This document shows, piece by piece, positions 1 to 9,619 of a stretch of 64,000 bases of DNA (positions are counted from its first letter, which is position 1; every line of letters starts with the position of its first letter). The stretch is taken from positions 63,206 through 127,205 of the forward strand of contig NZ_LMDI01000045.1 of assembly GCF_001425785.1 (NCBI RefSeq), in the 5' to 3' direction. The position numbers and the translations under genes are program-made. The DNA is from Rhizobacter sp. Root1221 (GTDB lineage Bacteria > Pseudomonadota > Gammaproteobacteria > Burkholderiales > Burkholderiaceae_C). The notes beneath the pieces were generated by a model. It did not search any database and had not been told where the DNA came from. It worked only from the letters and a program-made list of their open reading frames with translations.

Positions 1-21
1 CCGCATTTTTTTGCGCCAGCC

Positions 22-61
22 TTCTACACTTGTTGACATCACAAGTTCTACGTTTGTAGAA
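22..61. promoter_or_regulatory. Overlapping palindromes over the early promoter (candidate repressor operator)
   Basis: TTCTAC(46-51)-GTTT-GTAGAA(56-61) is a perfect inverted repeat covering the -10 region. ACTTGT(28-33) and ACAAGT(41-46) form a second inverted repeat around the -35. TTCTAC also occurs directly repeated at 22-27. Such an arrangement is expected of a dimeric phage or ICE repressor that blocks RNA polymerase. The repressor gene is not in the window and would lie to the left, so its family cannot be named. Confidence 0.55.
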
Positions 62-62
62 T
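33..62 (+). promoter_or_regulatory. Sigma70-type promoter of the element's early operon
   Basis: A perfect -35 hexamer TTGACA (33-38) is followed after 18 bp by TAGAAT (57-62), five of six matches to the -10 consensus. It lies about 40 bp before the first gene of a long co-directional chain. The surrounding sequence is clearly more AT-rich than the rest of the window. No experimental start site is known; the assignment rests on the hexamers and their position. Confidence 0.65.
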
Positions 63-99: not shown

Positions 100-411
100 A
101 TGCAAACCATCGCCAGCCGGCCCCCGGCACTCTCCAAGCCACGCCAGACCCCTCGGCGCCGCCTCCCCCCCATCGTCGGCTCGCGCATCGCGGGCCATCA
201 ATCGGGCACTGGAGTGGAGTCCGACCAGATCTACTTCGGCCCCACCTCCGCTCTCGGCGAGTTGGGGTCCGCGTTCTGGTATCGCATGCGCGAGGCCACC
301 TCCTGGAGCCGCGCCGATGCGTGGCGCATTCGCCAGGAAATCTGCGGCACCAGCATCTATCTCGACGCCGTCATCGATGACTTCGGCAGCCTGGTGGTGG
401 TGTCGCAATGA
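100..411 (+). CDS. Hypothetical phage/ICE early protein, 103 aa
   Basis: This is the first gene after the promoter. ATG at 100 has a GGAG ribosome site at 91-94. The N-terminal third is rich in Pro, Arg and Ser and probably disordered. The C-terminal half (from about residue 48, YFGPTSALGELGSAFWYRM) looks folded and contains Trp/Tyr-rich helices. The stop overlaps the next start by 4 bp (ATGA), indicating translational coupling. I recognise no domain. The high Arg content of the N-terminus could mean nucleic-acid binding, which is only inference. Confidence 0.55.
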   Translation: MQTIASRPPALSKPRQTPRRRLPPIVGSRIAGHQSGTGVESDQIYFGPTSALGELGSAFWYRMREATSWSRADAWRIRQEICGTSIYLDAVIDDFGSLVVVSQ

Positions 412-695
412 ACATCGACATCCGGCTCACCGATCCACGACTTCCCGGTCGCATTGACATCGTCGTCACCGTCCATCGGGCCCCTGACAGCGCGTCGTCG
501 CCCCTCCCCGGCCGACTCGCGGTCTCCATCACCACCGACAACGGTTCGCTGTGCGCATACCCGACGGCGAGCGAGGCGCGCGCGTTGGCAGCTGCGCTGA
601 ACTGCGCGGCCACTGAACTCGACGCCGTGACGGCCGACGATGAGGCCGCGTTCCAGCGCGCCGGCGAAGGCTATACAGCGCGGAGCCGCACATGA
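408..695 (+). CDS. Hypothetical phage/ICE early protein, 95 aa
   Basis: The start overlaps the upstream stop (ATGA at 408-411) and its own stop overlaps the next start in the same way (692-695). The product has a predicted beta-strand-rich N-terminal half followed by an Ala/Glu-rich helix (about residues 50-85). No catalytic motif or membrane segment is visible. Its place in the coupled chain is the main evidence that it is a real gene. The function is unknown. Confidence 0.55.
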   Translation: MNIDIRLTDPRLPGRIDIVVTVHRAPDSASSPLPGRLAVSITTDNGSLCAYPTASEARALAAALNCAATELDAVTADDEAAFQRAGEGYTARSRT

Positions 696-856
696 AGCCC
701 GCCCGCCTCTTCTTGGCCAAGTACACCCTGCGCAACGGCGCCCGCGGCACGTTGCACGTGATCGCGACGTGTAGCTGCGATGCGGTGGTGGTAGCCATCG
801 ACACCTTCGGCGGAAATCTGCGCACCTGCAGCGTTTGCGCCCACCCCTCCCCCTGA
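692..856 (+). CDS. Small CxC/CxxC protein of phage type, 54 aa
   Basis: ATG at 692 overlaps the previous stop by 4 bp and the frame is open to TGA at 854-856. The product contains a CSC motif (Cys27, Cys29) and a CSVC motif (Cys46, Cys49) flanking an AIDTFG segment. This arrangement could bind a single zinc ion. Small proteins with a similar 'CDAV..AIDTFG..LRTCS' pattern occur in proteobacterial prophages (general knowledge, not searched here). Length and coupling support a real gene; function unknown. Confidence 0.55.
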   Translation: MKPARLFLAKYTLRNGARGTLHVIATCSCDAVVVAIDTFGGNLRTCSVCAHPSP

Positions 857-909
857 CCCGCCCTCTTCGCCCCGCGGGCGTGCAGACGCCTGCACAACCA
901 GGAGCCCAT

Positions 910-1248
910 ATGGCCGACTTCGCCGCCACCGAGTTTCACGCCGACCCCGACCTGGCAGAGCGCCCGCCAGCGCTGGCCCACGTCAGGCCCGTTCGCAATC
1001 CGATCGCGTTCCCGGCCGAAGACGCGGCCCGGCGGCGGGCCGAGGCCGCGCGCCTGGCCGAAGAGGTGGCGATCAAGCGACACGAGCGGCTGCAGGCGCT
1101 CTTCGACAACGCCAAGCGGCAGGCACACGCCGCCGGCCGCGCGCAAGGCCGCGAAGAGCGGCAGTTGACGGTCTGGCTCTGGGGCGCCAGCACGGGCCTC
1201 CTGCTGGCCGCCACGCCCATCCTCTACGTCTTCACCAAGGCTGCTTGA
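910..1248 (+). CDS. Small coiled-coil membrane-anchored protein, 112 aa
   Basis: The start at 910 has GGAG at 901-904 with 5 bp spacing; an in-frame upstream ATG at 835 lacks such a site. Residues about 40-85 are a charged Ala/Arg/Glu helix, probably coiled coil. A single hydrophobic segment near the C-terminus (about 91-108, containing LWGASTGLLLAATPILYV) is a likely membrane anchor with a short tail. This is the only gene in the early chain with a clear transmembrane segment. The function is unknown; holin or spanin roles are not supported by length and position. Confidence 0.6.
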   Translation: MADFAATEFHADPDLAERPPALAHVRPVRNPIAFPAEDAARRRAEAARLAEEVAIKRHERLQALFDNAKRQAHAAGRAQGREERQLTVWLWGASTGLLLAATPILYVFTKAA

Positions 1249-1249
1249 C

Positions 1250-1657
1250 GTGGGCGCCGTGCAAGCCAGCCCGCGCGTCGCGCCGGCTCCTTTGCAAGCC
1301 GAGTCAGCCTCGGTCGAATTCGGCCCGCTCAAGTGCTCCGTGGCGGGCTTCCTGCTCAAGCACTCGGAGGTGCGCATCAGCACCGACGGCGGCGGACACC
1401 TGATCGTCCAGGTGCTGCAACCTGGCGACGCGTTGCCCTTCGTGGCCGTGCAGCACGTGAAGGCAGACGAGCTGGAGAGCCTCAAGGAGCGCGCCGCACT
1501 TCTCCGCAAGCACTCTGCCGTCCTCATCCTCGGCAGCGGCATCGGCCTGTCCACCCACGACGGCAACGCCGTCCTCAAGCTGCGGCACGTGCGCGGCATT
1601 CAGCCGGTGAACTCCGGCGACTACTTCACCACCCTCGACTGGAAGGACCCCTCGTGA
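1250..1657 (+). CDS. Hypothetical phage/ICE protein, GTG start, 135 aa
   Basis: GTG at 1250 begins one base after the previous stop codon. The product alternates beta strands and short helices, with a Leu/Lys/Glu helix near residues 72-90. It has no Cys cluster, P-loop or membrane segment. The stop overlaps the next start as GTGA at 1654-1657. The function is unknown. Its gene is part of the same transcriptional unit as the HD phosphohydrolase and ParB-like genes. Confidence 0.55.
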   Translation: MGAVQASPRVAPAPLQAESASVEFGPLKCSVAGFLLKHSEVRISTDGGGHLIVQVLQPGDALPFVAVQHVKADELESLKERAALLRKHSAVLILGSGIGLSTHDGNAVLKLRHVRGIQPVNSGDYFTTLDWKDPS

Positions 1658-1995
1658 CCCTGAACCGCCCCGATCACCACGAGTTCACCGTGGGCGCCCA
1701 ACGCAGCGAGATCATGCTGCGTGATGGCTCTGCGGTGACCTTGCTCCCCGTGTTCCAACATGGCGAGCCCTGCCCGTACCACCGAGCGGTCAAGCTGAAC
1801 GGTGCCGTGCGTGTGATCGACATCCGCCACCTGGTGCGCCAGCTCGGCGACGACATCGCCGCGGCCCCGTCGCGCGATGTGCCCGGCCTGGTGTTTTTCA
1901 CCCTGCGTGCCGCATTCCCGTCCGCCGTGTGCCTGCTCGACCGGGTCAACACGCTGGGCGCACTGGTGCACCTCGAACCCGGGGTGCCGGCATGA
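1654..1995 (+). CDS. Hypothetical phage/ICE protein, GTG start, 113 aa
   Basis: The frame is open much further upstream, but GTG at 1654 overlaps the preceding stop (GTGA), fitting the coupling pattern of the whole chain. The product is a compact alpha/beta protein with a central IDIRHLVRQLGDDI helix and a hydrophobic VFFTLRAAFPSAVCLL segment too polar at its ends to be a clear membrane span. The stop overlaps the next start by 4 bp (ATGA). No family is recognised. Confidence 0.55.
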   Translation: MTLNRPDHHEFTVGAQRSEIMLRDGSAVTLLPVFQHGEPCPYHRAVKLNGAVRVIDIRHLVRQLGDDIAAAPSRDVPGLVFFTLRAAFPSAVCLLDRVNTLGALVHLEPGVPA

Positions 1996-2633
1996 CCTGG
2001 ATGCTCACCATCACCGGCGCCATCGTCGATCTCCGGTACATGGAGGCCGCAACCATCGACATCCTGGACATCGCCCAAGGTTTGTCCCAGATCAACCGAT
2101 ACACCGGCCAGGCCTCGCGCCCGTACTCGGTGGCCGAGCACAGCTTGCTCGTCGTTGAGCTGCTCGAACGGCAGGCCGGTGCGACGAACCCCAACGTGCT
2201 CCTGGCCGCACTGATGCACGACGCCCACGAGGCGTACTTCGGCGACATGTCCGCGCCCCTCAAGCAGACGCTGGACATGGCCACCGGTGGCGCGCTGCGC
2301 CGCGAGGAACAACGCGTGCAGTCCAGCGTCCTTCGCAAGTTCCGATTGATCACGCCGTTCTATTCATCCAGCCGCGAGATCCACTGGGCGGACATGACCG
2401 CACTGAGCACCGAGCGCGAGGCCCTCATGCCGAACCAGGGGCCCACCTGGGCGTGTACCAGGTCGTATCCGCCCGTCACGTGGAAGAACTTCGAAGCCGA
2501 CGGTGACCGCGACTGGCAGCACTGGCGCGCGGCCTTCCTCATGAAGTTCGCCGAACTCGATGCGGCGCGGCAGGCCAAGGCCATCGCGCTCGCGTCCGCC
2601 CCCCTGTCCGCCGCGGCGGACGCATCCTCTTGA
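1992..2633 (+). CDS. HD-domain phosphohydrolase (YfbR-like, phage type)
   Basis: The 213-residue product has the HD-superfamily metal site: His50 in PYSVAEHSLLV, the HD pair His76-Asp77 in LMHDAHEAYFGDM, and a later Asp in IHWADMTAL (about residue 132). The segment 'INRYTGQ...PYSVAEHS' is typical of phage and ICE relatives of 5'-deoxynucleotidase YfbR, which hydrolyse nucleotide monophosphates in the cytoplasm. A role in nucleotide-pool metabolism or defence evasion is inference. The start overlaps the previous stop by 4 bp. An upstream in-frame start at 1929 would overlap the preceding gene more and is less likely. Confidence 0.8.
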   Translation: MTWMLTITGAIVDLRYMEAATIDILDIAQGLSQINRYTGQASRPYSVAEHSLLVVELLERQAGATNPNVLLAALMHDAHEAYFGDMSAPLKQTLDMATGGALRREEQRVQSSVLRKFRLITPFYSSSREIHWADMTALSTEREALMPNQGPTWACTRSYPPVTWKNFEADGDRDWQHWRAAFLMKFAELDAARQAKAIALASAPLSAAADASS

Positions 2634-2642
2634 GATTCCCTC

Positions 2643-4439
2643 ATGACCGACACCATCATCACCATCGGGATCGCCGACCTTCACGAGAGCCCGTTCAACC
2701 CTCGCAAGAACTTCGTCGACACGACGCTGCTGGAACTGGCCGCTGACATTCGGGCGCATGGCCGCATCCTCCAACCGCTGCTCGTTCGCCCACGTGTGCC
2801 GCCTCTCTTCGCAGGCGACGCTGACGCGACTGTCGGTCACGAGATCGTGTTCGGCCATCGCCGCTTCCGAGCTGCCCGTCTGGCCGGTTTGGTGGAGGTG
2901 CCAGTCATGGTGCGGCACATGACCGACGAGGAAGTGAAGCGGGCGCAGATCTCCGAGAACCTGCAGCGGGAAGACGTGCACCCGATCGAGGAGGCTGAAG
3001 GCTTCCAAGCGCTGATCGACGAGCACAACATGACGGCCGACTTGCTGGCTGAGCAGCACGGGAAGAGCCGCAGCTACGTCTACGGCCGACTGAAGCTTCT
3101 GGCCTTGTGCCCCGAAGTGCGCAAGGCCTGCCTGGCCGGCGAGATCGGCAGCGAAGTCGGCCTGTTGATCGCACGCGTGGGCGGCACGAAGCTGCAGCAG
3201 AAGGCGCTGTCCGACATCAAGGGGCGCAACGGCGATCCGACGGACGGCGGCAAGCGAAGCTTCCGCAGCATCCGCGATTTGCTGAACGAACGATTCACCC
3301 TCAAGCTCAAGGGCGCGATGTTCGACATCGAGGACGAGATGCTCGTGCCGGCGGCAGGCCATTGCGTGCGATGCACGAAACGCAGCGGTAACGCGCCTGA
3401 ATTCGAGGATCTTCTGGACGACAAGGGGAGCCACCGCTGGTCACACACGAACACCGGTCCAGACGTTTGCACGGACCCGGACTGCTTCGACAGCAAGAAG
3501 AAGGCGCACCTGAAGCGCGAGGCCGCCAAGCTGCAAGAAGCCGGCAAGGTGGTCGTCGAAGGCACCAAGGCGCGCCAGGCGATCGACGCGTACGGCAAGC
3601 TCAAGGGCGGATTCATCGCTGTCACAGCGGTTCGCGCCGAACTGAAGAAGGTCGCCGGCGACAAGAAGCCTCAGGTGTTCACGATCCAAGATCAGCGCAC
3701 CGGCCAGACGGTCGAGGCAGTGAAGGTCGCCGACATGCAGGCCGCGGGTATGAAGTCCACCGCGCCTGCCCCCTCGCCTCAACACGCCCTCGACTCCGAG
3801 GCCAGGCGGCGGCAAGCGAAGGAGGACGAGGCCAACGTCAAACGCGAGCACGAGCGCCGCCAAGGCCTGTTCAAGCGCGCACTCGAAGTCGTCCAGGGTC
3901 GTGAGCGCACCGAGTTCGACATGCGGTTGATCGCCCGCTACGTCGTTTCGCAGATGGACTACGACGACGACGAGACCCTGCTTGAGGCCTACGGTGCCTC
4001 CGACCGCAACGAACTGACCGAGCGCCTCGCGGCGATGTCGGCCTTCGAGATCGGCACGCTCATGCTCGCGGTCGCGATGTCGGTGAACGCCGAGTGCCAC
4101 TACAAGAACGCCGCTCCTGCGGAGTACCTCGAAGCCGTGGCCACCGAGTACCGCATCGCCCTGGACGAACTCGTCGAAGGCGCTTCCACCCCTGCTTTGG
4201 CTGCGCGCGCGCCGGAGGAGAGCGAGCCGACCGGCGATGACCAGGTGCGCGATGCCGGGCCCGGTGCTTGGCCCTTCCCCCGCACCGGGGCCGAGACGAA
4301 GAAGCCGCGCAAGAGCAAGGCGAAGGCCACTGCGCCTTCGGCGCAAGAACAGAAGGACGAAGCCGGCTCCGCCGGCGCCGAGCCGGTGCTGCAAGCCGCA
4401 TGGCCTTTCCCTCGCTCGATCACTACGGAGGCCGCATGA
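2643..4439 (+). CDS. ParB/Spo0J-family nuclease-like/partition protein of a mobile element
   Basis: This 598-residue protein has an N-terminal ParB domain with the two CTP-binding motifs GHRRF (71-75) and ENLQR (105-109), the latter followed by HPIEEAEGF. A helix-turn-helix follows at about 130-155 (LLAEQHGKSRSYVYGRLKLL). It is about twice the length of chromosomal ParB. The extra part has a Cys-containing segment (about 240-285, HCVRC and CTDPDCF), a charged coiled-coil region (about 380-430) and a low-complexity tail in which AWPFPR occurs twice. No parA partner lies nearby, so a role in element gene control or DNA handling is as likely as partition. The next gene overlaps its stop (ATGA). 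Confidence 0.8.
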   Translation: MTDTIITIGIADLHESPFNPRKNFVDTTLLELAADIRAHGRILQPLLVRPRVPPLFAGDADATVGHEIVFGHRRFRAARLAGLVEVPVMVRHMTDEEVKRAQISENLQREDVHPIEEAEGFQALIDEHNMTADLLAEQHGKSRSYVYGRLKLLALCPEVRKACLAGEIGSEVGLLIARVGGTKLQQKALSDIKGRNGDPTDGGKRSFRSIRDLLNERFTLKLKGAMFDIEDEMLVPAAGHCVRCTKRSGNAPEFEDLLDDKGSHRWSHTNTGPDVCTDPDCFDSKKKAHLKREAAKLQEAGKVVVEGTKARQAIDAYGKLKGGFIAVTAVRAELKKVAGDKKPQVFTIQDQRTGQTVEAVKVADMQAAGMKSTAPAPSPQHALDSEARRRQAKEDEANVKREHERRQGLFKRALEVVQGRERTEFDMRLIARYVVSQMDYDDDETLLEAYGASDRNELTERLAAMSAFEIGTLMLAVAMSVNAECHYKNAAPAEYLEAVATEYRIALDELVEGASTPALAARAPEESEPTGDDQVRDAGPGAWPFPRTGAETKKPRKSKAKATAPSAQEQKDEAGSAGAEPVLQAAWPFPRSITTEAA

Positions 4440-4708
4440 CCCCAAGTCAGCTCGCCACGCTGGATGCGGCCGCGGAGTCCCTAGGGCTGAACGTCGGCGG
4501 CCAACTGGCCGCGGACGTCCGTGCGCTCGCAGCGGCAGCGCGCATCGACGCGGCACCCGTCGCCATGTTGAAGCGCGTGCGCAACGAGTTGCACGCCTGC
4601 CAGGCGGTGATCCACCTCGCTGGTGGATTCGACCCTCGCTACGTCGCCGATGCGAAAGCTGCTCTCAAGGAATTGGACGCGGCGATTGCGCTGAAGGAGC
4701 CGTCGTGA
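4436..4708 (+). CDS. Hypothetical helical protein, 90 aa
   Basis: ATG at 4436 overlaps the ParB-like stop codon (4437-4439). The product is almost entirely predicted helix, rich in Ala and Leu, with one Cys and no metal or nucleotide motif. The stop overlaps the next GTG start (GTGA at 4705-4708). The sequence gives no clue to function. Its conservation of coupling on both sides is the reason for accepting it. Confidence 0.55.
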   Translation: MTPSQLATLDAAAESLGLNVGGQLAADVRALAAAARIDAAPVAMLKRVRNELHACQAVIHLAGGFDPRYVADAKAALKELDAAIALKEPS

Positions 4709-4980
4709 GCAAGGCTGCCTACGTGAAGTCCCAAGCCCAGACACGCCGGCATCACTGCCACTGGCCGGGCTGCGAGCGGCAGGTGCCGCCAGCGATGTGG
4801 GGTTGCCGGCCGCACTGGTGCGCCCTGCCACAAGAGCTGCGCGATCGCATCTGGCGGACGTTCCAGCTTGGCCAAGAAGTGAACGGCACGCCCAGCTGCG
4901 ACTACGTCGAGGCCGCCCGTGCGGTCCAGGCCTGGATCGCTCAGCAGCCACGGCCGCCCGAACAGGGAGCGCTGCTGTGA
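4705..4980 (+). CDS. Phage-type Cys/His (zinc-finger-like) protein, 91 aa
   Basis: GTG at 4705 overlaps the upstream stop. Residues 17-40 hold HCHWPGCERQVPPAMWGC followed by a PHWC segment: a cluster of four Cys with several His that could bind zinc. It continues into LPQELRDRIWRTF and a helix ending in VQAWI. Proteins with 'CHWPGC...VPPAMWGC..HW..LP..LR..IW' are widespread small prophage proteins (recalled, not searched). Biochemical function is unknown; DNA binding is plausible. Confidence 0.65.
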   Translation: MSKAAYVKSQAQTRRHHCHWPGCERQVPPAMWGCRPHWCALPQELRDRIWRTFQLGQEVNGTPSCDYVEAARAVQAWIAQQPRPPEQGALL

Positions 4981-5429
4981 AGCGCCGCACTCCGAGCCGC
5001 AGCGAGTTGCTCAACCGACTGCCGCGAGCGTTTCGCCCGAAACTCGTCCCAGACCAGGTGCGCGACTTGGCCCTAGCCCACGTCGTCAACCTCGACGCGA
5101 TCGCCACCGGCCAGGCCGACGAGTCGATCCTCTGGCAGCAGGTTGGCGGAACGCTCACCTGGTGCCGCGTCGCCGAGCTCCTCGGCATGGGCGAACCGGA
5201 GATGGCCGAGCAGCTGCAGCTGCTTGAGCAGGTCGTTGCCCGCTACCGCAGCACTGGCCGCTTGGTGTTCGCCGGCCCCGAGTACCAGCTCGCGAAGAGG
5301 GGCCTGCAGGTGATGGACCAGCTGGCAGCGATCGTCGACCGGCCCACGGCCCTGCAGGCGGCCGAGTGGGGCGAGCAGCGAATGAACACGATGGCCCGAG
5401 GGGCCGAAAAGCAGGAGCAGCCGACATGA
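4977..5429 (+). CDS. Hypothetical phage/ICE protein, 150 aa
   Basis: GTG at 4977 overlaps the preceding stop (GTGA). The product begins with an Arg-rich segment and a 'LNRLPRAFRPKLVPDQ' motif. Helices follow, with 'GGTLTWCRVAELLG' near the middle and 'FAGPEYQLAKRGLQVMD' in the C-terminal half. No enzyme motif is visible. The pattern resembles conserved hypothetical proteins in proteobacterial prophages and ICEs. The stop overlaps the next ATG. Confidence 0.55.
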   Translation: MKRRTPSRSELLNRLPRAFRPKLVPDQVRDLALAHVVNLDAIATGQADESILWQQVGGTLTWCRVAELLGMGEPEMAEQLQLLEQVVARYRSTGRLVFAGPEYQLAKRGLQVMDQLAAIVDRPTALQAAEWGEQRMNTMARGAEKQEQPT

Positions 5430-5680
5430 ACGCCCACCGCTTGACTTACCCCGCCGGAGCCCTCGTGCGCGCCACCGAGATCTGCCGCAATACCAAGACC
5501 GGCCAGCCAGGGCTGCTGCCCATTAACCGAGCCACCTGGTACAAATGGCTGGCAGCCGGCAAGGTGCCGAAGGGGACGCACCTAGCGGGTAGCCGCACGG
5601 TGGTGTGGCCCATAGAGGTCGTACGCTCGTTGGGGCAGCCGGCCGCACAGGTCGCGCCAGAGAGCGCACCAGCAACCTGA
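5426..5680 (+). CDS. AlpA/excisionase-like helix-turn-helix protein, 84 aa
   Basis: The last gene of the chain; its ATG overlaps the previous stop. The middle of the product (about residues 30-70: LLPINRATWYKWLAAGKVPK followed by GSRTVVWPIEVVRSL) is a MerR/AlpA-type winged helix-turn-helix: start-helix, recognition helix with 'WYKWLAAG', a wing and a final 'W....V..W/L' segment. AlpA-family proteins activate integrase or act as excision directionality factors in P4-like elements. That role fits here because the integrase is the next-but-one gene, in the opposite direction. Confidence 0.65.
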   Translation: MNAHRLTYPAGALVRATEICRNTKTGQPGLLPINRATWYKWLAAGKVPKGTHLAGSRTVVWPIEVVRSLGQPAAQVAPESAPAT

Positions 5681-5689
5681 CGGGGTGCT

Positions 5690-6328
5690 TCACGCCCCGG
5701 CTTCTTGCTTGGCTTGCCGCTGCTGCATCCGCGTTTCGCGTTCGCTTTGGCGCTCGTTAAGGAACGCCAGTCTCTCCGCCATTCGGGATGCGCGCTCGCG
5801 ACCGGCAGTCGCATCAATCTCGAGCGGGAGGTCTGCAGCCCGCCGCAACCGACGCACCAAATCGGCAGCGTAGATCGCGAGGGAGAGGTACTTGTACTGG
5901 CGGACCGCGAATTCATCGTAGTACTCCGGCCAGTCCCCGTACTCAAAGTGTCTATCGATCTCGACCGCCAATCCGTCGGCCTTGTATGGCAAATGCAGGA
6001 TCTCGAACATGAGTTTGGACGGCAACGACTTCCAGTCGACGTCGAACGTCATGGGCTCGAACGTCGGGGCCTGCACCGTGATTTGGTGGAAGCCTTGCTC
6101 CCCTGCGGGTCTGCCCTCTGCCGTGCCATCGTCGAATGACACCGCCCAGCATCCGTCGACGAAGCGCTCCAAGTGACCACCCACGAGGATGGCCAAGTAC
6201 GCAGCATCCTTCTCACGGTTCGTTCGGACCGTCACCCAGTCTTTAATCGCCCCGATGCACTGCCCCAGCACAACGCCGCTGATGGCCGCCACTGCACCCA
6301 CAACGGCCGATCCAGTTGCTGCTTCCAT
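5690..6328 (-). CDS. Membrane-anchored hypothetical protein, 212 aa
   Basis: The start at 6328 has a GGGGAGAG ribosome site. Residues about 5-25 (SAVVGAVAAISGVVLGQC) form one transmembrane helix or uncleaved signal anchor, followed by a long soluble part with several Trp and Tyr and a C-terminal charged helix rich in Glu, Arg and Gln (about 175-210). Its base composition is visibly lower in GC than that of its neighbours. It is co-directional with and 41 bp downstream of the integrase. It has the look of accessory (morphon-like) cargo; the function is unknown. Confidence 0.6.
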   Translation of the reverse strand: MEAATGSAVVGAVAAISGVVLGQCIGAIKDWVTVRTNREKDAAYLAILVGGHLERFVDGCWAVSFDDGTAEGRPAGEQGFHQITVQAPTFEPMTFDVDWKSLPSKLMFEILHLPYKADGLAVEIDRHFEYGDWPEYYDEFAVRQYKYLSLAIYAADLVRRLRRAADLPLEIDATAGRERASRMAERLAFLNERQSERETRMQQRQAKQEAGA

Positions 6329-6369: not shown

Positions 6370-7599
6370 TCAGCTCACGGCGCGAAGCGGGATAACCCTT
6401 GCGCCGGAGGCCGCGAGCTCTACGCGGTCTGCCAGAAACTGAAGCGCGGTTCGCCGTTCATCGGCCAGCTCGTGGTGCAGGTAAGCGGCCTTTGTCTTGT
6501 CCTTCTCCGCATGAGCCAGCAGCAATTCCACCACATCCTTCCGAACCTTGTGCTCGAGGAGTAGTGTCGCGGCCGTGCCGCGCGTTCCGTGCGGGCTGAA
6601 GCCTGAAACGCCGTACGCCATCCGACTGAACAGGTGATTGAGGGTGACGTCCCCCATCGGCACGCGGCGGCGAAAAACCGAGGGAAAGACCCAGTCACTG
6701 CCGGCACTGAAGTGGAACATTTGCCGCAACAGGTCGACGGCTTGGCGCGACAGGTACACCCGGTGCGCCTTCTTCATCTTCATGCGCTCCGCCGGGATGT
6801 CCCAGACCCCGGCATCGAGGTCGAACTCGGCATGCTGTGAACGCAGCAGCTCGCTCTTGCGAACCATCGTCAGGAACAGGAGTTTGGTCGCGATGATCGT
6901 CGCCGCGTGAGCACCAGCCTGCTGATCGAGGCACCGCAGGAACGCGCCGAGCTGTTTCTCGGTCAGGTGCTTGTGGTGGGTCGCCGGCGGCACCACCACC
7001 GCCCCCTTCAAGCCGAACGCCGGATTCGCCTTCACGACGAGCTTGCGCATGGCGAAGCTGAACACCTGCTGGATCACCCTGCGCACGCCGTCGGCCGTTG
7101 TCGGCTTGTCCAGCAGTCCGTCGAGGATCTCGAGGATGTGCCCGGCGCCGACGTCCGGCATGTCGAGGTCGCCAATCACCGGGTTGACGAACGTGTCGAG
7201 CCAGCGGTTGATCTGCGCGCGGTACGTCTCCGATCGGTAGAACAGCGTCTCGTCCACCCAGCGCGCACTGAAGGCTCTGAACGACACGGCCGCGGCCGCG
7301 GCGGCCTTCGCGGAGCGCACAGACGTCTGCTTGCCCTTGGCGGGACTGTGACCCTGGTCGACCTGCAGGCGCATCTCGTCGTGCTTCTCCCGCGCCTGCT
7401 TCACCGAGAGCGCCGGGTAGTTCCCGAGGGTCACCTTTTCACGCTTGCCGTTGAGGTGGTACTTGTACCGCCATGTCTTCGTGCCCGAGGGTAGGATCTC
7501 GACGAGCAGGCCGCCCCCGTCGGTCAGCGAATAGGGTTTATCGCGTGGCTTCGCGTTGTCGAGCGTGATGGGTTTGAGCGTGTAGTTGACGTGACGCAC
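6370..7599 (-). CDS. int: Tyrosine recombinase (P4-type integrase)
   Basis: The 409-residue protein carries the N-terminal arm-binding domain of P4-type integrases (about 1-90: 'DGGGLLVEILPSGTKTWRY', 'REKVTLGNYPALSVKQAR'). A core-binding domain (about 115-200) and a catalytic domain follow. The catalytic residues include the HGTRGTAA box (His and Arg near 345-348) and a final 'LLLAHAEKDKTKAAYLHHE' segment with the Tyr nucleophile. Length is normal for the family and the reading frame is intact. It sits at the border between mobile DNA and icd, so it probably integrated this element. The AlpA-like gene at 5426 is the likely directionality partner. Confidence 0.93.
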   Translation of the reverse strand: MRHVNYTLKPITLDNAKPRDKPYSLTDGGGLLVEILPSGTKTWRYKYHLNGKREKVTLGNYPALSVKQAREKHDEMRLQVDQGHSPAKGKQTSVRSAKAAAAAAVSFRAFSARWVDETLFYRSETYRAQINRWLDTFVNPVIGDLDMPDVGAGHILEILDGLLDKPTTADGVRRVIQQVFSFAMRKLVVKANPAFGLKGAVVVPPATHHKHLTEKQLGAFLRCLDQQAGAHAATIIATKLLFLTMVRKSELLRSQHAEFDLDAGVWDIPAERMKMKKAHRVYLSRQAVDLLRQMFHFSAGSDWVFPSVFRRRVPMGDVTLNHLFSRMAYGVSGFSPHGTRGTAATLLLEHKVRKDVVELLLAHAEKDKTKAAYLHHELADERRTALQFLADRVELAASGARVIPLRAVS

Positions 7600-7652: not shown

Positions 7653-7694
7653 GTTTTTTGGCGATGCAGGGCGACCAAAGGCGACAACGGGCAA

Positions 7695-7730
7695 CAAAAA
7701 AGCCCCGCTCCTCATAGGCAGCGGGGCTTC
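7695..7730 (-). terminator. Rho-independent terminator of icd
   Basis: Reading the minus strand, a 9-bp GC-rich stem (AGCCCCGCT at 7701-7709 pairing with AGCGGGGCT at 7720-7728) is followed by a T run. It lies 34 bp after the icd stop codon. Confidence 0.85.
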
Positions 7731-7763
7731 GGATCAGATTCCGGGCGATGCCCGGAAACCCGA

Positions 7764-9017
7764 TCACATGTGGTCGATCATCACTTGACCGAAGCCCGAG
7801 CACGACACTTGGGTCGCGCCTTCCATCAGGCGGGCGAAGTCGTACGTGACCTTCTTCGACGCGATGGACTTTTCCATCGAGCTGATGATCAGGTCGGCCG
7901 CTTCGGTCCAGCCCATGTGGCGCAGCATCATTTCGGCGGACAGGATCTCGGAACCCGGGTTCACGTAGTCCTTGCCAGCGTACTTCGGTGCGGTGCCGTG
8001 GGTGGCTTCGAACATGGCGACGGAGTCGCTCAGGTTCGCACCCGGGGCGATGCCGATGCCACCCACCTGGGCGGCCAGCGCGTCGGACACGTAGTCGCCG
8101 TTCAGGTTCAGCGTGGCGATCACCGAGTACTCGGCCGGGCGCAGCAGGATCTGCTGGAGGAACGCGTCGGCGATGGAGTCCTTGACCGTGATTTCACGAC
8201 CCGTGACCGGGTTCTTGAACTTGCACCAAGGGCCGCCGTCGATCAGCTGGGCACCGAATTCCTTCTGGGCCAGGTTGTACGCCCAATCACGGAAGCCACC
8301 TTCGGTGTACTTCATGATGTTGCCCTTGTGCACGATCGTGACGCTCGACTTGTCGTTGTCGATGGCGTACTGGATCGCCTTGCGGACCAGGCGCTCGGTG
8401 CCTTCGCGCGAGACCGGCTTGATGCCGATGCCCGACGTTTCCGGGAAGCGGATCTTCTTGACGCCGAAGTCTTCCTGCAGCACCTTGATCAGGCGCTTGG
8501 CCTTTTCGCTTTCGGCTTCGAATTCGATGCCGGCGTAGATGTCTTCCGAGTTCTCGCGGAAGATGACCATGTTGGTCTTCTCGGGTTCCTTGACCGGCGA
8601 CGGCACACCCTTGAAGTACTGGATGGGGCGCAGGCAGACGTACAGGTCGAGTTCCTGGCGCAGGGCCACGTTCAGCGAGCGTATGCCGCCACCGACCGGG
8701 GTGGTCAGCGGACCCTTGATCGACACGACGTAGTCGCGGAGCACTTGCAGCGTTTCTTCGGGCAGCCACACGTCGGGGCCGTACACCTTGGTGGACTTCT
8801 CGCCGGCGTAGATCTCCATCCACTGGATCTGCTTCTTGCCACCGTAGGCCTTGGCCACGGCCGCATCGACCACCTTGATCATCACGGGCGTGATGTCGGC
8901 ACCGGTGCCGTCGCCTTCAATGAACGGGATGATGGGCTGATCCGGAACGTTCAATGAGAAATCGGCGTTGACGGTGATCTTCTGCCCGCTGGTGGGCACT
9001 TTGATGTGCTGATACAT
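7764..9017 (-). CDS. icd: Isocitrate dehydrogenase, NADP-dependent
   Basis: Converts isocitrate and NADP+ to 2-oxoglutarate, CO2 and NADPH in the TCA cycle. The 417-residue length matches the E. coli enzyme (416). Visible signatures are [13 protein letters not shown] near the N-terminus, the substrate serine region [13 protein letters not shown] (about 110-125; the phosphorylated Ser of E. coli lies here) and the metal/NADP region [15 protein letters not shown] with [11 protein letters not shown]. The frame extends upstream, but ATG at 9017 has a GGAG site 8 bp away and gives the family N-terminus. The gene ends beside the integrated element, which recalls the icd 3' end used as attB by phage 21 and e14. 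The coding end is intact. Confidence 0.97.
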
Positions 9018-9134
9018 GAGATTGCTCCGGTCGATGCAATGGAAAATAGTGGAACTGGATAAGCCCTCTCCGATTCTATGCCACGCATGAGCCCCCTTGC
9101 GCCGGAGACCGCGCCCCCGAATGGGGCGCTCGAC

Positions 9135-9146
9135 GCCATAATCGCC
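9135..9146 (+). promoter_or_regulatory. Candidate -10 region (GCCATAATCGCC) of the DUF192 gene
   Basis: CATAAT (9137-9142) matches the -10 consensus at five of six positions and lies about 30 bp before the start codon. The same 12-mer occurs upstream of exbB (12128-12139). No good -35 is visible at 17 bp. Confidence 0.4.
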
Positions 9147-9172
9147 ACAGCCCACCGCCCCCGCCCGTCCCG

Positions 9173-9619
9173 ATGACCCTCCTTCGCACCCTCGCCTGCC
9201 TCCTCGCCACCTCGTGGGCCATCTCCTCTGCCCAGGCGCAGGCCCCACAGGACCTGCCCACCATCAAGCTCGGCGCGGGCATCTACAACATCCGTGCGCA
9301 GGTCGCCCAGACCGACGAGCAGCGCATGACCGGCCTGATGCACCGGCCCGCCATGCCCAACAACGACGGCATGCTGTTCGTGTTCAACGAGGCCACCCAG
9401 CAGTGCTTCTGGATGAAGAACACGCTGCTGCCCTTGTCGGCCGCGTTCATCGCCGACGACGGCACGGTCATCAACATCGAGGACATGAAGCCGCAGACGC
9501 TCGACTCGCATTGCTCGAAGAAGCCCGTGCGTTTCGTGCTCGAGATGAACGTGGGCTGGTTTGCCAAGCGGGGCATCAAGCCGGGCGCGCGCCTGACCGG
9601 CGAGCCATTCAAGCCCTGA
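9173..9619 (+). CDS. Secreted DUF192 protein
   Basis: The 148-residue product has a cleavable signal peptide (about residues 1-22, ending AQAQA). The DUF192 domain follows, with hallmarks [38 protein letters not shown] and a C-terminal [14 protein letters not shown]. Proteins of this family are small exported proteins of unknown biochemical role, often near core metabolic genes. The gene is divergent from icd (155 bp between) and is followed by a strong terminator. Cys residues in CFWMKN and DSHCSKK could form a disulphide. Confidence 0.9.

Follow-up and report, generated by a model that had tools for sequence, protein, structure and literature searches.

The sequence considered here lies at the left end of a 64-kb stretch of DNA from Rhizobacter sp. 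Root1221 (the window), and positions to the left of the window, which carry negative numbers, were read from the same 6,865,017-base genome. Read directly, the letters are TTCTAC at 22-27, ACTTGT at 28-33, TTGACA at 33-38, ACAAGT at 41-46, TTCTAC again at 46-51, GTAGAA at 56-61, and TAGAAT at 57-62. The promoter scan recognizes TTGACA (33-38) and TAGAAT (57-62), with an 18-bp spacer, as a forward-strand promoter with 11/12 matches (PL, 33..62), in keeping with an earlier note on this DNA, which had placed a near-consensus promoter under a set of repeats; across the 2.5-kb region that includes PL, the scan returns 3 promoter-like sites, against 0.3 +/- 0.6 in shuffled sequences. Also as that note had described, an inverted repeat TTCTAC-N4-GTAGAA is present at 46-61 and a direct repeat of TTCTAC at 22-27. 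Two predicted 16-bp operators, one per promoter hexamer and 24 bp apart, cover the promoter on the forward strand: an upstream, OL2-like operator (TTCTACACTTGTTGAC, 22..37, score 24.9) that overlaps the -35 hexamer, and a downstream, OL1-like operator (TTCTACGTTTGTAGAA, 46..61, score 27.4) that overlaps the -10 hexamer, both scored with a symmetric matrix built solely from other phages (ten of them, contributing 20 PL operators). A terminator-like hairpin separates the cI unit from PL on the same strand (-20..5, with a T run to 15; terminator scan), although one such hairpin against 1.7 expected in shuffles is weak evidence on its own.

PL is followed by twelve closely packed forward-strand genes at 100-5680, which bears out the chain of at least twelve coupled genes reported earlier (100-411, 408-695, 692-856, 910-1248, 1250-1657, 1654-1995, 1992-2633, 2643-4439, 4436-4708, 4705-4980, 4977-5429, and 5426-5680). 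At nine of the eleven junctions, neighbouring genes overlap or leave a gap of one base; the gaps at the remaining two measure 53 and 9 bases. The gene at 1992-2633 encodes an HD-domain protein, and that at 2643-4439 encodes a ParB-like protein, for which a search of genome contigs returned a single relative (L004), from another kind of organism. The last gene of the operon (5426-5680) has a possible AlpA-like product (E=0.0045, below the Pfam cut-off; absent at an E of 0.001) and occupies a position resembling that of the AlpA/MerR genes in the phages Aval and VarioGold; it may be AlpA-like, which would fit an excisionase.

A tyrosine integrase gene (6370..7599, reverse strand; PF00589 and PF13356) faces this operon, with one gene between the two; for the product of this intervening gene (5690-6325, reverse strand), the matches are to PDC-S67, a candidate defence family (E=3.4e-56), and to the unannotated phrog_33426. 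The right attachment repeat (7692..7781, forward strand) falls on the 3' end of the reverse-strand gene icd (7764-9248; Iso_dh PF00180, E=9.9e-89), and its left partner lies at -32825..-32736; the two share exact direct repeats of 55 bp and 21 bp, in register and ~40.5 kb apart. Genes for a primase-helicase and terminases lie further left, beyond a CII gene. Judged by its gene content (terminases, primase-helicase, CII, and integrase) and its attachment repeats, the element is a temperate phage; among the features recognized, none pointed to a transfer element, the other option that the earlier note had offered. Just inside the left attachment site, at 7637-9940 of L231 (reverse strand; about -32360..-30060 in window numbering), is a gene for a 768-aa AAA_13 protein with a match to PDC-S06, a candidate defence family (E=1.8e-169), and a weak one to PrrC. 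A LexA-like box, CTGTACAAAATAACAG, lies ~0.2 kb upstream of it.

Left of the window, where a regulator gene was looked for, one is present, and the claim that a repressor is encoded directly to the left stands: a gene for a CI-like repressor of 138 aa occupies -682..-266 on the forward strand (HTH_3 E=1.3e-7, above the Pfam cut-off; phrog regulators). Its predicted structure has block means of at least 90 in the helix-turn-helix (HTH) and a low-confidence C terminus, with block means of 45-77. The earlier note was mistaken about orientation in that cI is co-directional with PL, and the gene divergent from cI encodes instead an 85-aa Cro of the YdaS family (-1022..-765, reverse strand; PF15943 E=9e-11, phrog_35 E=6.5e-14), whose structural-database matches, PDB 8co2 and 8c7k, are both named Cro (E ~3e-5). 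After cro comes a gene for a CII-like regulator of the Phage_CP76 type (-1597..-1115, reverse strand; PF06892 E=4.8e-20). The position that rexAB has in lambda, between cI and PL, is taken here by a gene for a 64-aa hydrophobic protein (-223..-29, forward strand), with one weak phrog whose annotation names no function.

Between cI and cro lie three further predicted operators (-755..-693), spaced 23 and 24 bp: an OR1-like operator (TTCTACATGTGTAGAA, -755..-740), detected both by the matrix and as a genomic match to TTCTACNNNNGTAGAA; an OR2-like operator (CTCAACAAGTGTATTT, -732..-717), the weakest of the three and below score 9 by the matrix; and an OR3-like operator (TTCAACAAGTGTTTAA, -708..-693), detected by the matrix over the likely -10 of PRM (TTTAAC, -697..-692, placed by eye). 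A PR-like promoter, TTGAGC-17-TAGAAT (-756..-728, reverse strand; promoter scan, 9/12), lies under the first two with the same geometry as PL under its own pair. The start codons of cI and cro each lie close behind their -10 (for cI, the likely one), so both genes may be leaderless. The region therefore presents the features of lambdoid-type immunity, namely, a CI-like HTH gene, a divergent Cro-like gene, a CII-like gene after cro, repeated operators over PR/PRM between cI and cro, and the same operators at OL/PL.

The predicted operators at both control regions are rare. TTCTACNNNNGTAGAA has 1 match in the 64-kb window and 0 in 100 shuffles, and genome-wide only 2 sites (-755 and 46), one per control region and both in the prophage, where the backward-pattern control gives 0; ACACTTGTTGA has 4 sites genome-wide, two before cI, one at window position 26, and one elsewhere, against 1 for its backward control. 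With the operator matrix at a score of at least 9, positions 22 and 46 are the only sites in the window, and 22, 46, -755, and -708 are the only sites in 30 kb of phage, -732 falling below this score. Among 399 family genomes, 16 (own included) have a TTCTACNNNNGTAGAA site, whereas ~58 have the backward control pattern, and only the present genome and G319, whose pair (L223) has the CI/Cro arrangement, carry the site twice on one contig; lone sites in 14 of the 16 genomes are probably due to chance, since the backward control is commoner. The motif TGTTGA-N9-TTCTACNNNTGTAGA occurs, among 399 genomes of the order, in the present genome only (the carrier G319 falls outside that sample). Exact TTCTACGTTTGTAGAA was found in 74 stretches: in 9 of them, 14-16 of 16 letters agree with the upstream operator, another 64 agree with it at 8 letters or fewer and are probably unrelated, and one is unscorable. 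For TTCTACANNTGTAGAA in viral contigs, we considered only the matches listed and drew no count from them. Among the papers listed by a literature search confined to those outside subscription, no earlier description of this operator was found.

The arrangement recurs in other phages. A composite of both operators, TTCTACNNNTGTTGA-N9-TTCTACNNNTGTAGAA, is present in 13 viral stretches (self included), although the pattern itself fixes the 24-bp spacing, which is thus no evidence there. A CI relative is present on 11 of the 13 composite-bearing contigs, and L052 and L227 show no CI/Cro match in the ~0.65 and 1.4 kb available upstream. The letters between the two PL operators vary among these loci, and the conserved operators predicted at PL are only TTCTAC-N4-GTAGAA and the degenerate TTCTACACTTGTTGAC.

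For a broader comparison, we assembled 41 CI-related viral loci (self included) from the CI alignment with two peptide patterns, one of which, VD[VTI]GTISA, lies in the recognition helix, so that the search favours repressors of like specificity; many of the 41 are near-copies and hence not independent, and 30 aligned repressors comprise 28 different HTH sequences. All 41 have an operator with a score of at least 20 positioned 61-82 bp before cI, as do only 2 of 2050 shuffled upstream stretches. Among the 24 loci with at least 3 kb to the right of the cI start, 22 have an OL-like pair (both scores at least 17) 22-24 bp apart and 0.5-1.9 kb downstream, in a scan that left the spacing free within 20-26 bp; L270 and L271 have the cI-side operator and lack the downstream pair. 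Eight of these 24 loci supplied the matrix or are near-copies of suppliers, and the pair is present in 14 of the other 16 (own included). Where under 3 kb to the right was available, 2/17 loci show the pair (L239 and L245). No further sites with a score of at least 20 occur across 217.5 kb.

Six remote CI relatives were found in family and order genomes, outside the recognition-helix search. L008, from another family genome and found without the motif, has a CI match of 41% over 63 residues, two sites ahead of cI (1429/1452), and two more at 2749/2773 that form a pair 24 bp apart (scores 16.1, 9.9, 17.6, and 19.7); L009 has sites near cI with scores of 14.9, 10.8, and 15.8; and L010-L013 have zero sites at a score of at least 8. 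The less similar the repressor, the weaker the operator code, which is what one would expect of a code read by CI. Searching annotated phages with CI (tblastn) gave nothing at 1e-5, and a Cro search returned three phage and three plasmid-collection records, all with <60% identity.

Several details vary around this conserved core. In 39/41 loci (not L260 or L263), the divergent open reading frame (ORF) starts with an ATG 7-10 bases away from the first operator and immediately beyond the -10 of PR, a position that suggests that cro, like cI, is leaderless. In 11 loci on contigs of 4-14.3 kb (L246, L247, L249, L250, L252, L253, and L255-L259), the usual cI-side operators are kept, and the divergent ORF is long, with a start that is not YdaS-like (read to 200 aa). 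L260, L263, and L266-L268 have three operators at PL instead of two, 22-23 bp apart. The gap between cI and PL holds different ORFs in different phages (L003 9777-9971, L016 5641-6267, L077 13360-14101, L080 4410-5084 [oriented], and L225 8059-8463), with no other ORF of at least 60 aa on the cI strand in L223 and L224, and is possibly a cargo spot; for the gene in L016 there is a weak match to PDC-S48, a candidate defence family (E=4.3e-7).

Taken with the layout to the left, the predicted operators point to an OR-like switch at -755..-693, 0.7 kb left of PL, of which PL is the second arm. The earlier note had seen in PL the main lysogeny switch, and what holds of this is a very likely repressor-controlled promoter; the word "main" does not, since PL belongs to the second (OL/PL) arm. 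With high confidence, then, we read 22-61 as the OL/PL arm, predicted to be bound by CI, of an immunity region of lambdoid type that belongs to a prophage of ~40.5 kb located at icd. From lambda and the tested prophage CP-933P, we infer by analogy how CI and Cro would bind, the dimer state, the filling order, repression, and competition by Cro. The CI-like repressor (-682..-266) would occupy 22-37 and 46-61, probably as dimers, and by sitting on the -35 and -10 of PL would silence the early operon of twelve genes. On -755 and -732, CI would likewise block PR and, at -708 over the likely PRM -10, would tune its own promoter. The YdaS-type Cro would compete for the same sites and push the phage toward the lytic state.

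Cro homologues accompany CI wherever CI was found in the composite-bearing loci, and because the two co-occur, sequence alone cannot say which protein reads a site. The palindromes might accordingly be primarily sites for the YdaS-type Cro, with CI binding elsewhere or only at OR. We regard this as unlikely: the 11 loci with a long, non-YdaS-like ORF in the place of Cro keep the cI-side operator, and the operators of lambda and CP-933P are overlapping or shared (PMC8630535).

Two other readings concern the letters themselves. The earlier note had set a second inverted repeat, ACTTGT-N7-ACAAGT (28-46), beside the first, and its perfect 6+6 match, with 1 occurrence in the window and 0 in 100 window shuffles, makes it real as letters and might speak for a separate functional site. 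Its left half, however, is part of the upstream operator TTCTACACTTGTTGAC, and its two halves are complementary at just 1-4 of 6 positions in 11 same-promoter loci, of which two are near-copies, compared with 6/6 here; we rejected it as an element because it is not conserved, and a function of its own is very improbable. Least credible of all is that a host regulator reads TTCTAC-N4-GTAGAA and that phage control is incidental: the host genome has only two sites, both inside the prophage, which rules against such a reader, and family genomes with the site are fewer than those with the backward control. The OL/PL arm predicted to be bound by CI remains the preferred reading throughout what follows.

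In lambda, one repressor reads two separated control regions, with operators ~24 bp apart on the promoter hexamers; an accessory gene lies between cI and PL, and int is in the PL operon. The present region is like lambda in its two control regions, the ~24-bp operator spacing on the hexamers, and the gene between cI and PL, and unlike lambda in its operator sequence, YdaS-type Cro, and short CI without S24, as well as in having int on the opposite strand, outside the PL operon.

The closest tested system is CP-933P, a cryptic prophage of E. coli O157:H7 with a PaaR2-YdaS-YdaT region, in which PaaR2 and YdaS each repress PL933P ~100-fold in reporters (PMC8630535). Both systems have a YdaS-type Cro divergent from a CI analogue, a CII analogue after cro, and operators (predicted ones here) both between cI and cro and at another promoter, PL; the repressor gene is leaderless in CP-933P and may be so here (PMC8630535). 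They differ in operator consensus (GTTTAGTAA in CP-933P, TTCTACAnnTGTAGAA here) and in operator number, the CP-933P OR having four 18-bp inverted repeats and three overlapping operators and its OL having three operators (PMC8630535), unlike the three (OR-like) plus two (OL-like) here. They also differ in CII, which is of the Phage_CP76 type here, and in the paaA2-parE2 toxin-antitoxin pair of CP-933P, no counterpart of which was recognized beside the present repressor.

Gene order is similar to that of the Variovorax phage VarioGold (OP296522) and the Acidovorax phage Aval (OP131589), in both of which int points towards an operon that includes AlpA/MerR-like and ParB-like genes, followed by CI, CII, and primase-helicase genes; unlike here, their CI is of the S24 type. 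TTCTACNNNNGTAGAA has 0 matches in either genome with up to 2 mismatches. Motifs were therefore picked by eye in the control regions of the two phages. For VarioGold, ATAGCNNNNGCTAT-like sites with no more than 2 mismatches number 9: two at PL (32895 and 32920, a spacing of 25 bp), three at cI/cro (33675, 33690, and 33714), and 4 elsewhere, each of these with 2 mismatches. For Aval, the 11 TAACGGNNNNCCGTTA-like sites with no more than 3 mismatches comprise a PL pair with a spacing of 24 bp (7935 and 7959), then 8011, 8709, 8723, and 8745, and 5 elsewhere, each of these with 3 mismatches. The condition that would have told against the earlier note, palindromes missing from homologous elements, has a split outcome and refutes nothing: the palindrome sequence differs along with the repressor, and the architecture is kept. 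A term search of the VarioGold paper gave 0 occurrences of the word "operator" (PMC9658991).

The 138-aa CI has no S24 domain, PF00717 being absent at E values of 0.01 and 0.001. Thirty of the 41 CI proteins were aligned (the remaining 11, including the fragment L269, were judged by eye to be look-alikes and dropped), and Peptidase_S24 is present in 15 and absent in 15 (own included, one cut by a contig end); the cI-side operator is present for all 30, with or without S24. A tree built on the HTH (68 residues) has poor resolution, with 15/25 inner branches open and 5 starred; on it, S24 was labelled as a length of at least 205 aa, which gives 15 proteins, equal in number to the Pfam count, with L236 (cut by a contig end) unlabelled. 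The length classes require at least 6 changes on this tree, two of them forced by well-supported branches, whereas shuffled labels average 9.9, which means that the classes cluster as well. It would seem, then, that phages with this one operator code have changed their trigger domain on more than one occasion. We advance only tentatively, as a proposal that falls somewhat short of an even chance, that TTCTACAnnTGTAGAA is one operator code of a broad set of temperate phages, read by both S24 and non-cleaving repressors, in which the induction domain has been swapped more than once.

Since the repressor shows no recognizable domain for self-cleavage, our guess, by analogy, is induction by an antirepressor in the style of the Gifsy phages. 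In Salmonella, the CI-like repressors of Gifsy-1, -2, and -3 are described as uncleaved on induction, which proceeds through LexA-controlled antirepressors (PMC3121763); the present CI, lacking an S24 match, may resemble them in escaping cleavage. Two LexA-like boxes (CTGTN8ACAG) were found in 52 kb, both in the prophage, a number counted without a shuffle control and given no weight in the reading above.

What had been an isolated palindrome becomes part of a predicted regulatory code comprising a repressor, a Cro, five operators, and two main promoters, and this predicted code is conserved in nearly 30 distinguishable viral loci. Its layout is much as in lambda, and its recognition sequence is different and common to other little-studied phages. 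The operator code could serve to predict immunity groups from sequence. With the same operators paired with repressors of two kinds of C terminus, a swap of trigger without a change of immunity becomes directly testable. If the proposal of a shared code is true, such phages would be homoimmune yet answer different triggers, and a non-cleaving resident could silence a co-resident, DNA-damage-inducible prophage in trans.
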